A DNA stretch of 64,000 nt from Opeltia flavorubescens (taxonomy: Eukaryota; Ascomycota; Lecanoromycetes; Teloschistales; Teloschistaceae), in contig KE546970.1 in the NCBI GenBank assembly GCA_000442125.1, positions 434,001 through 498,000 on the forward strand, read 5' to 3'. The position numbers were made by a program, and so were the translations under genes. The notes under the pieces were generated by a model. That model did not search any database and was not told the DNA's origin. It was given only the letters and a program-made list of their open reading frames with translations. Position 1 is the first letter of the stretch. Every line of letters starts with the position of its first letter. Positions 19,927 to 22,780 of the stretch are shown here, piece after piece.

Positions 19927-21405
19927 ATAAGATGATTCTGAAAGGAGATGTTGAGCAAGGTTGCGGAATGATGGAGATAGATAACGGACAATGAGATCAT
20001 GCTGCATGGCTTCCGATGTCCTGGTTCCTTGTCAATTTCATATGCTGTTGCTCCCCTAGCAGGTAGGTCTTCATGGTCTTAAACAAGTAGAGCTGGTAGC
20101 GTCCGAGTTTCTCCCTATAGCCTGATACGCTGTCTTGCTGGTGCATTTAGCATTAGATGCCTACTCCCGCCCGCCGTAGGCCCTCTTGGCCCCTGATCAA
20201 AAAAGCGATTAAGATAGGCTTCACACGTGAACACTACAACAACAGCGATCGTTACGCAAACATTGCATCATAAATCTTGATTACCGTAAGGATGTTAGCC
20301 GAAAATCTCAGCCCTACTATGGAAGGACTGTCGGAGCTACCTATGCAGTTTCTTGTATAAGATTCCGTGAGTTCTGGCGGGGAACGCGGTGTCCTATTCG
20401 CTTCTGTTGGTCACCCGGAGGGGGGCTTCTCCTAAACTCGACTTTTGACCTCGACGCAAAACACTATGCCTCCCGGCGAGGGCATCGCTAATACATCGGA
20501 CCCGCTCTGTTTTATCTTGTATTCGATTCGATTGCTATTACCTCGTACTCCATAGCCGATCAATGCAGACATGAGCATCCACTTGTCAACTTAAAGCTGA
20601 CATCTACAACAGCAACAGCACGGCTACATATCCAACATTCGATAGCAAAACGGCATAATCACTAATGGAAAGAATGATATGGGAGAGTAGAAAGCAGTCC
20701 TAGATTGAGCTATCTAGAGACCTATCCGCAGATCATATCTCCTCAGCAAGTAATAATTGATGCTATTGACACACTTTTCATCATCGTCTTCTCCGAATGT
20801 CCTTCCTCAATAAGATAAGAAATGCTTTTTGGAAGAAATGTTTCCGCCAGTGAGCTCGTCAATCGGCCGTTTCATTAGGAAAAGAAAAGAATNTGTTCCA
20901 CCAGCGAAAAGCTCCTGTGCTCCAGACCGCCGTTTTCGATATGTTGGTTTCATCATGGGAATTTGTGATAATAATGCTGAATTCTGGTGCATGTGTCAGT
21001 TGTTGCGTTGAGCAAGGGGAACGGAGGAAAGTGGAATGGACATACAGAATTCCCATTGATGAAACGATGTCATGAACTACTCTTTTTCGACTTGGCCAAA
21101 GTCGCGAGGCTAGGGACAGCTTGGTCAGTAAAAGGAACGTACAGTGGACGAAAAACAGTGTGACATACCTCGTCGACAGTGACTGGGTCATCCGAAGCGG
21201 TGACTACAAAGCGGATGGGTTGGTTAGCAGATGTCTTCCGACGCGAAAGAGGACGAAAGTGAAATGAAAAAGAAAATCAGCTAAGAATACATGATGATCA
21301 AAATCAGCAAAGAAGTAAAGAACGCCAGACAGCCATGGATTGCGACTCTTGTACAAAATTCATGACCAAGTCCCTTCGAAGTGTGACGAAAGTCGAGTCC
21401 CCAGG
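19927..21405. other. Long intergenic region with a possible short spliced transcript
   Basis: About 1.48 kb. Around 20805-21240 on the minus strand there are two well-formed intron-like segments (a GTATGTCACAC... donor near 21174 and a GTATGTCCATTC... donor near 21046, the latter ending CACCAG). No joined reading frame of useful length or recognisable product results. One N at 20893 lies in this stretch. The remainder holds nothing recognised. Confidence 0.4.
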
Positions 21406-22780
21406 CTAGCCGGTCACTATCGGCTCGAACAAGGATACTCGTCCATTTTCAGCGTTCTCCAAGGAGCTTGTCATTGGTGCAAATGACGAAGCTGATGGTG
21501 GAGTGGTTATCGTTCCGTACACAGCGCCAGTCGTACTGAGATCAGCGCTTCCTCCGGGAAAAGGAGTTGGTGCTGGCTGACCATGGCCTCGAGTACCGTT
21601 TCTCGCTTCAGTCACTCTCAGTGCTGGCAGCAATGGGGCCGTTGATGATGCCGCCTGAGTGGTGTTGGACATGTTTGTGAACAACGGGAATGAAGCATTG
21701 GATGCTGCATGAAAATTAGAGAATTGCTTGACGATACTATAGCATCCGGGACACATACCTTGGACACCCTGAATGCAGTAAGCGTATCCAACCTTGAGGT
21801 TGTCGCAGCTGGAGTTGATGTCCGGGTTAAGCTGTCGGAATTGCGCGAAGGTGAGGTTTTGCGCGGATACCAAGGCTGCCAGGCATGAATCCGGCTGACC
21901 TTGCAAGTTGACAACCACCCACCAAGACGCACACTGTCTTGATGTACCATTGATGATGAGAGCAGGAGGAGGAAGGACGACTATGATTCATCAAGGTTGT
22001 CGGTCTGAGTTGAAGCGGATCACGTTGTGATGGGTTCGCAGAACACATGAGGCGACAACATACGCTAGGAAAGATACGAAATGCAAGAGCACGAAACTTT
22101 GTATCAAGATGATGACTTACGAGGTTCGGGCGAAGCGTCACGCTTCATCTCCATGGAGTAGGAGCAGTGGATCTGTCCGTCAGGTGCTTCCCAGCAATGC
22201 TCCTGACGCTTGCCAAGGGAGCAATGGATCTGTCCGTCGGGTGCTTCCCAACAATGCTCTTGACGCTTGATGAAGGTCTTGTAACAGATGGGAGCGCCAC
22301 AATTCGGATACTTGTCGAGATCAGGATTCTTCTTTGGCTTCTTCTTCTTCGGCTCTGATCCTTGTATCAGCTCCTATCTCTTGACACAGCACGAAGTCTA
22401 CATGGTGATGGAACCTACCAGGAAGTGCTTCACGCTTTCCGTAGGAACAGTGGATCTGGCCATCAGGAGCTTCCCAACAATGCTCCTGGGGATCGCGCTT
22501 GACCCAACCGCAATGGACCTGACCATCTGGGGCCTCCCAACAGTGCTCTTGAGGCGAACGCTTCATCAAAGAGCAATGGACTTGCCCGTCAGGGGCTTCC
22601 CAACAATGCTCTTGGGGAGCACGCTTGACATCTGCTAAGGAATGTCAGTCTATTATTAGATGAGTACAGTGAAGGTAGAATGGACATACCGACGTCCACT
22701 TTCGGGAGTGCAGCAGTGTTAACACCATGCAGACCAATCGTGGTGAGGCCAATGATGGCAGAAATGATGAAAGTCTTCAT
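21406..22780 (-). CDS. Secreted Kex2-repeat peptide precursor fused to a LysM domain
   Basis: Model: exons 22780-22690, 22631-22419, 22354-22121 and 21980-21406, total 371 codons including the stop. A signal peptide (MKTFIISAIIGLTTIGLHGV) is followed by Lys-Arg-delimited units. Three tandem copies of QEHCWEAPDGQ[I/V]HC are each preceded by Ala-, Ser- or Asp-Pro. A Lys-rich spacer with YPNCGAPICYKTFI follows, then two more copies. After the last KR comes SPEP-LVLPPPALIINGTS and a LysM domain (SCLAALVSAQNLTFAQF, LNPDINSSCDNLKVGYAYC), then a Ser/Thr/Pro tail. Kex2 should release the repeats in the Golgi. The repeats resemble KEP/dikaritin or alpha-pheromone precursors; LysM domains bind chitin oligomers. 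No in-frame ATG opens the LysM exon after its upstream stop, which favours fusion. The joining intron (140 nt) is longer than its neighbours, so two genes remain possible. A 54-nt in-frame segment at about 21706-21759 may be a further intron. Confidence 0.7.
22165..22623 (-). repeat. Five Kex2-delimited peptide repeats (units of about 57-66 nt)
   Basis: Three copies lie in exon 2 (about 22623-22430) and two in exon 3 (about 22275-22165), separated by an intron and a different spacer peptide. Each copy encodes QEHCWEAPDGQ[I/V]HC plus a variable tail (SLM, GWV, SYG, SLG, SYSMEM) and KR. Within the 14-codon core the copies differ at the third base in 11 codons, but only Val/Ile varies in the protein. 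Confidence 0.9.

Follow-up and report, generated by a model that had tools for sequence, protein, structure and literature searches.

Does a single gene of Opeltia flavorubescens encode both a set of Kex2-excised peptides and a LysM protein? Kex2-processed peptide precursors of the KEP type are common in fungi; their functions are largely unknown. We analysed a 64,000 nt stretch of the genome (hereafter the window; C6:434001–498000), taken from an assembly of 34.4 Mb in 23 contigs. Unless a contig is named, coordinates refer to the window. An earlier note had read a peptide precursor at this locus as being joined to a LysM domain.

A five-exon gene on the minus strand

In the best splice model, the minus strand between 22780 and 21406 contains a five-exon gene for a 353-residue secreted-type protein. 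The order of parts is: signal peptide, peptide copies 1–3, a CGAPIC peptide, copies 4 and 5, a last KR, the spacer DASPEP, a LysM-like domain and a tail. The signal peptide, five KR-bounded copies and LysM-like exon described in the earlier note are present; all lie on the minus strand and are in phase with one another. The length given there, 371 codons, was too great. It had wrongly retained a 54 nt intron.

All features below are on the minus strand. Exon 1 (22690–22780) encodes the signal peptide, MKTFIISAIIGLTTIGLHGVNTAALPKVDV, leaves in phase 1 and has homologues with a similar N-terminus. From the ATG at 22780, the 10-residue hydropathy maximum is 2.45, reached among the first residues and higher than for any other ATG scanned between 23100 and 21760; by this hydropathy measure, the signal peptide expected of a KEP is present. 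Intron 1 (22635–22689, 55 nt) has a CTGAC branch close to its acceptor, as judged by eye. Exon 2 (22419–22634; 216 nt, phase 1-1) holds copies 1–3. For intron 2 (22355–22418, 64 nt) the acceptor at 22355 was picked because ALPEPKKKK then agrees with homologues. The acceptor of intron 1 was likewise set by agreement with relatives, at ADVKR. An early splice model, with acceptors 22632 and 22361 (later 22635 and 22355), was the query for the main relative, paralogue and peptide-part searches. Exon 3 (22121–22354; 234 nt, phase 1-1) encodes the CGAPIC peptide, copies 4 and 5, the last Kex2 site and the spacer.

Intron 3 (21981–22120) is the fusion junction. At 140 nt it is longer than the other three introns (54–64 nt). 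It has the donor GTAAGT and the branch TTGAT, 10 nt before the acceptor at 21981. Exon 4 (21759–21980; 222 nt, phase 1-1) encodes the LysM-like domain, with its Cys-to-Cys part at 21933–21775. Intron 4 (21705–21758, 54 nt) is the one that the earlier note had read through. It is removed in most relatives' models; P0023 and P0015 (relatives are numbered P0004 and so on) have extra residues at that place. Exon 5 (21406–21704) encodes a Ser/Thr/Pro-rich tail and the stop. Every one of the four introns is in phase 1, which makes the LysM exon a symmetric cassette (1-1).

Five copies of one peptide and one of another

The five copies share the core QEHCWEAPDGQ[V/I]HC, and the protein contains seven KR sites. 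Copies 1 (22573–22614, after KR-AP) and 2 (22510–22551, after KR-SP) both read QEHCWEAPDGQVHC. Copies 3 (22447–22488, after KR-DP), 4 (22221–22262) and 5 (22164–22205) read QEHCWEAPDGQIHC, the last two directly after KR. According to the accessible text of PMC6339444, a KEP has at least three similar fragments between KR or RR sites; five KR-bounded copies are found here. The two-Cys repeats proposed in the earlier note were therefore borne out in number. A second peptide type, YPNCGAPIC, between copies 3 and 4 had been overlooked. Its CGAPIC motif (22284–22301) also occurs in relatives.

Codons of the copies were compared across all 10 pairs. This crude count, made with a search pattern built from the five observed copies (all that exist), gave 62 synonymous differences at 68.0 sites and 6 nonsynonymous differences at 352.0 sites. 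Hence, the codons have drifted near saturation with the peptide unchanged. This contrast, and the same layout in relatives, argue that the repeat layout is not chance.

Searching the genome for paralogues returned only a weak signal-peptide match on C12 (E 0.057). As far as this search shows, the gene is thus single-copy. At the C12 locus (C12:1463500–1465500), a similar signal peptide, MKSILISAIIGLTTLAIHGV, lies near a CVHTSDGYIEC motif. By eye the locus resembles P0031 from Loekoesia, and it is possibly a degenerate paralogue.

Peptides and LysM recur together in Teloschistales

The spliced protein had 38 relatives at E ≤0.1. Of the 35 with names, 32 have Teloschistales genus names and three are Physciaceae (Heterodermia, Physcia). 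A further 18 proteins came from the peptide-part search and six from a LysM-profile search. We take most of the genera to be Teloschistales; lineages were looked up for three to four species. The census comprised 29 of 48 fetched proteins, with 19 dropped (P0025, P0027–P0038, P0041–P0045 and P0048). Before the final census the LysM pattern was widened, bringing in Brigantiaea P0024. The pattern had no match in the 18 dropped proteins that were scored (P0048, from Colletotrichum, was fetched later).

At least one core together with a full LysM occurred in 16 of the 29 census models. Counting full or half LysM, the number was 20. Five models had cores and no LysM (P0008, P0009, P0010, P0039 and P0040), three had LysM and no core, and one had neither. 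Eight KEP-like proteins of Teloschistales that have cores but lack LysM had been set aside as paralogues by judgement (P0025, P0028, P0029, P0030, P0031, P0032, P0034 and P0036); if they are included, both modules are present in 20 of 37. For P0029, P0031 and P0034 there is another relative from the same organism; this is not so for the set-aside proteins from Letrouitia and Wetmoreana.

All but one of the census models (28/29) are NCBI annotations of MAGs, which can merge genes. In one source project, as outlined in the accessible part of PMC9907504, funannotate was given ESTs and proteins of three other lichen fungi (Xanthoria, Cladonia and Usnea) as hints. We assume that the other relatives' records were annotated by a similar pipeline. 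One model, P0009 (cf. Caloplaca sp. 1), merges an upstream oxygenase gene with the peptide precursor. The window, too, has a 2OG-Fe(II) oxygenase gene (24822–23787, minus strand) immediately upstream, in synteny with cf. Caloplaca sp. 1.

The models place both modules in Brigantiaea leucoxantha (suborder Letrouitineae) and in Gyalolechia (suborder Teloschistineae). Hence, the combination seems older than the split between the suborders. The earlier note had guessed at Leotiomycete relatives; the same domain order was found in Lecanoromycetes, order Teloschistales.

Some models depart from the common layout. Chitin_bind_1 is added in three of 25 relatives scanned, namely Squamulea P0012 and P0015 and Gallowayella P0019; P0012 scores 27.0 bits and P0019 28.1 bits against a cut-off of 27.8. 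In P0013, P0014 and P0017 (Kuettlingeria, Pyrenodesmia), C[Y/H]EAPDGQIQC-type repeats follow the LysM and tail, and other KR-bounded Cys stretches precede the LysM. Either tandem genes were merged in these models or the rearrangement is real. The Physciaceae proteins P0033, P0035 and P0038, from outside Teloschistales, have CWEAPDGQIHC-type and WCGAPFC-type peptides, and no match to the LysM pattern.

The probable fusion junction

If the locus were two genes, the precursor would stop just past 22121 and LysM would be a gene of its own; gene finders and the earlier note would both have merged the two. Some observations fit. Read-through of intron 3, or use of the acceptors 22065 or 22005, stops the precursor within 30 codons. 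P0039 and P0040 end right after DASPES and DASPEA, with RK and RE, respectively. P0023 is modelled with LysM and no peptides, and P0009 indicates that annotation merging does occur.

The sequence upstream of the LysM domain argues against two genes. We scanned ATGs between 23100 and 21760 by hydropathy. In the LysM frame, as the earlier note had it, no ATG precedes the domain or lies inside it; nor did the scan find a signal-peptide-like start in that frame. The second-best start by hydropathy (2.09, from residue 20 on) is the ATG at 21991, which is not in the LysM frame. The LysM-only model P0023 starts with MALPPPAP and has no signal peptide. LysM models from Variospora and Seirophora start with a signal peptide that resembles the precursor's. 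In Variospora P0020, P0022 and P0026, one copy or a decayed copy stands between signal peptide and LysM (half a LysM in P0026). In Seirophora scorigena P0046 the signal peptide is joined straight to LysM. These models look like natural deletions. Judging from the protein sequences, the RK and RE at the ends of P0039 and P0040 would be translated donor sequence (GTAAG or GTGAG) at the same place.

Signals at the junction itself point the same way. Among the three YAGs from 22120 to 21981, only the acceptor at 21981 has a YTRAY branch in the last 30 nt; as a background rate, YTRAY lies 8–18 nt upstream of 280 of the 3386 YAGs in the window. The last Kex2 site, KR, and the Ste13-type spacer DA-SP-EP that follows it together occupy 22122–22145 (minus strand). 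Across 18 junction sequences, which are related and not independent, A or P occupies positions 2, 4 and 6 in 15, 16 and 12 cases, and positions 1, 3 and 5 in 3, 1 and 2. The 18 are the window and 17 full-LysM models with an upstream KR, ER (P0004) or KQ (P0017). Outside the count are P0023 and P0046, which lack such a site, and four models with half a LysM (P0006, P0015, P0021 and P0026). A spacer of the Ste13 type ahead of LysM is easiest to explain by a product downstream; with two genes, it would have nothing to trim.

We regard two genes as highly unlikely. The proposal of one gene for both parts gains support from 20 of the 29 relatives' models, the phase-1 introns, the branch at 21981, the Variospora and Seirophora models and the spacer. 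The fusion of peptides and LysM, as judged from these sequences, is probably real.

Possible alternative splicing

A single gene could still be spliced in several ways. Peptide-only, LysM-only and combined proteins would then be separate isoforms, with the combined polyprotein a minor one. This is possible because all exon borders are in phase 1. In silico, peptides with a short tail, peptides with the tail and no LysM, and signal peptide with LysM are all open. Relatives' models take similar forms: peptides with a TTSDE tail in P0010, peptides with a similar tail and no LysM in P0008 (Ikaeria), signal peptide with LysM in P0046, and signal peptide with tail in P0047. Furthermore, the P0010 tail matches window positions 21204–21118 (tblastn; 51.7% identity, E 3.8e-6). 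A possible alternative exon, TASDDPVTVDE (21169–21203, minus strand), resembles the C-terminus of P0010. A possible alternative last exon, PRDFGQVEKE followed by a stop (21077–21109, minus strand), was compared with P0010 by eye; the tblastn match covers only the preceding exon and intron. By eye, donor-like and branch-like intron signals seem common to P0010 and the 3' stretch of the window.

Against this, both parts occur together in the 20 census models already described. Joining 22121 to 21203 would need a 917 nt intron, compared to 54–140 nt elsewhere in the gene. P0010 is also oddly close to the window for Letrouitiaceae (72%), with three other Letrouitia proteins at 35–39%. Hence, its contig may be misassigned. 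A short-tail isoform made via the 917 nt intron is possible. Overall, separate isoforms with a minor polyprotein seem to us unlikely, if well within reason.

A divergent LysM-like domain

Pfam LysM (PF01476) gave no match at E ≤10 in the 25 sequences scanned, nor at E ≤1 with the exon ORF. A profile of ten sequences, however, matched a Colletotrichum LysM protein (PF01476) at 6.5e-10; the latter is a Pfam LysM at 5.2e-24. In pairwise hhalign, E values were 1.3e-8 against the Colletotrichum protein and 8.8e-12 against a LysM-like domain of the same genome. This second partner, from a multi-LysM locus, scores under the Pfam LysM cut-off (14.3 bits, E 0.041), and another domain of that locus scores over it. 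The domain is thus LysM by profile homology and lies below the Pfam cut-off. The best PDB match of the profile was a Chitinase A chain at E 0.39 only, which we take to be the LysM of the chitinase. Searching PDB with a single sequence in place of the profile gave one irrelevant match (E 0.54).

Four Cys residues are invariant in 19 aligned sequences. Ahead of the second Cys, the loop exceeds that of the LysM domains compared by about four residues. Judging from this extended loop, chitin binding may be altered. At the multi-LysM locus (C13:202800–204800), an intron that appears by eye to be in phase 1 lies right after LysM, a border similar to that of the window's LysM exon. Such an intron fits an origin of the LysM exon by exon shuffling.

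Comparison with known precursors

The gene resembles KEPs, as these are described in the accessible text of PMC6339444 and PMC7329392, in its signal peptide, near-identical repeats (five here), intervening KR sites and Ste13-type dipeptides. It differs in adding a C-terminal LysM-like domain. The word LysM is absent from the main text of both papers, as far as that text is accessible. Hum3 of Ustilago maydis is like our protein in having Kex2-separated repeats and then a surface-active domain in one protein (PMC4617103, in part). However, the Hum3 domain is a hydrophobin and its repeats are amphipathic and 31–36 aa long; we compared Hum3 by its description in that paper only. On this comparison, Hum3 would be the nearest precedent.

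A chitin-binding motif has also been associated with KEPs. Type S-6 KEPs of Neocallimastix and Piromyces are annotated with Chitin_bind_1, according to the accessible part of PMC7329392, but this is another domain family in another fungal lineage. Fungal LysM effectors such as Ecp6, which we know from its description in part of PMC4617103, are likewise secreted and have LysM-like domains. Here, in contrast, a single divergent LysM, under Pfam detection, lies inside a peptide precursor.

The earlier note knew of no described precursor with both KEP repeats and LysM. We also found none in the open-access literature, nor the CWEAPDG motif. Searching there for Teloschist together with LysM led to PMC12712428, the accessible part of which is not on such a fusion. 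In a lichen fungus, secreted LysM and PF00187 are reported as separate proteins (PMC8355462, accessible part). In a survey of lichen RiPPs (PMC12048977), the accessible text does not mention LysM and its two clusters have no repeated core. Hence, the combination of KEP and LysM appears to be new; KEPs, and repeats with a surface domain as in Hum3, are already known.

Processing and a proposed role

We consider it likely that the gene encodes a Kex2/Ste13-processed polyprotein, yielding disulfide-loop peptides and a wall-binding LysM protein. This reading draws on gene layout, repeat conservation, cleavage-site grammar and recurrence in relatives' models, all taken from sequence. It supposes one transcript, cleavage, disulfides, chitin binding and a role in the thallus.

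To describe the cleavage-site grammar, we counted residues between Kex2 sites and cores. The count used 147 of 173 cores; the other 26 had no KR or RR within 14 residues upstream. Counting from KR, A or P stood at position 2 in 55 of 147, at position 1 in 13 of 147 and at position 3 in 10 of 137. Spacers not starting with an X-A or X-P dipeptide numbered 92 of 147. Once such dipeptides were removed, cores starting exactly with QEH rose from 20 to 47 of 147. In the window, trimming takes AP, SP and DP off three copies and two need none; all five then start with QEHC. Kex2-type and DPPIV/Ste13-type domains are both encoded in the genome.

Processing would run as follows. Once the signal peptide is gone, Kex2 would cleave at the seven KR sites and Kex1 would take off the K and R ends. 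A Ste13-type dipeptidase would then trim the X-P dipeptides (AP, SP and DP), giving the five copies their shared QEHC start. These peptides are predicted to close a nine-residue disulfide loop, C-WEAPDGQ[V/I]H-C. The sixth, CGAPIC-type peptide would also be cut out. Processing at KR-DA-SP-EP would free the mature LysM protein, predicted to begin near LVLPPP, with its Ser/Thr/Pro-rich and potentially O-glycosylated tail. Disulfide-loop peptides, CGAPIC-type peptide and LysM protein would thus arise at a constant ratio of 5:1:1. Most likely, the LysM product would stay on fungal-wall chitin or bind chitin fragments. The peptides may act extracellularly in the lichen thallus, as signals or defence peptides. 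We lean to a signal, to fungus or alga, because the trimming is like that of alpha-factor. Consistent with this, Le Marquer et al. argue for a signal role of Ste13-bearing KEPs (PMC6339444, accessible part).

A broader interpretation seems unlikely. The gene may be an order-wide, lichen-specific modular polyprotein in which phase-1-bordered modules are shuffled between species and possibly alternatively spliced. One locus would then set the ratio of diffusible peptide to chitin-anchored partner. LysM may hold the precursor or a product in the wall where it contacts the alga, as a symbiosis signal.

LysM joined to peptides in models from many species of one lichen order would link this family of peptides to the chitinous surface of the wall. 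The phase-1 exon layout suggests a route by which a peptide precursor takes up a wall-binding domain. The gene is a testable target for lichen biologists, and RNA-seq of re-synthesis is reported for Gyalolechia flavorubescens (PMC9232553, accessible part).

RiPP and pheromone readings of the peptides

Other identities for the peptides were considered. RiPP-like modified cyclic peptides, of the dikaritin kind, would be made via UstYa/DUF3328 enzymes. Umemura found UstYa-type genes near 22% of KEP genes (PMC7329392, accessible part), and the genome has 19 UstYa matches, counted exon by exon. A Tyr is at hand, since two of the copies are followed by SY. However, the conserved core itself contains no Tyr, and UstYa was found in none of the 20 window ORFs scanned with Pfam (of 50 ORFs of at least 150 aa). 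We rejected a dikaritin cluster, as the nearest UstYa match on the contig is approximately 495 kb away (C6:951639). Hence, modification of this kind is scarcely probable.

Alternatively, the peptides could be the alpha-type mating pheromone of the mycobiont, with LysM as a passenger. Ascomycete alpha-pheromone precursors share the Kex2 and Ste13 grammar (PMC6339444, accessible part) and have short two-Cys peptides. The core has two Cys and GQ, and X-A or X-P follows the Kex2 site at three of five copies and at the LysM junction. Conversely, the core is C-x9-C and not WCxxxGQxC, and a gene for the receptor Ste2 is present on C3. Alpha-pheromone precursors also differ in core motif, have no LysM and are encoded by a separate gene, which in this genome lies at C7:1168188–1168484. 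The presence of that precursor, whose WCYRPGQQC and WCLRPGQTC follow the usual pheromone pattern, led us to reject alpha-pheromone identity for the core. We thus consider a mating pheromone with a passenger LysM extremely unlikely, and retain the processed polyprotein as the preferred reading. The pheromone-type locus (C7:1167500–1169500) also contains CNLPGQPC and CNSDGQAC fragments.
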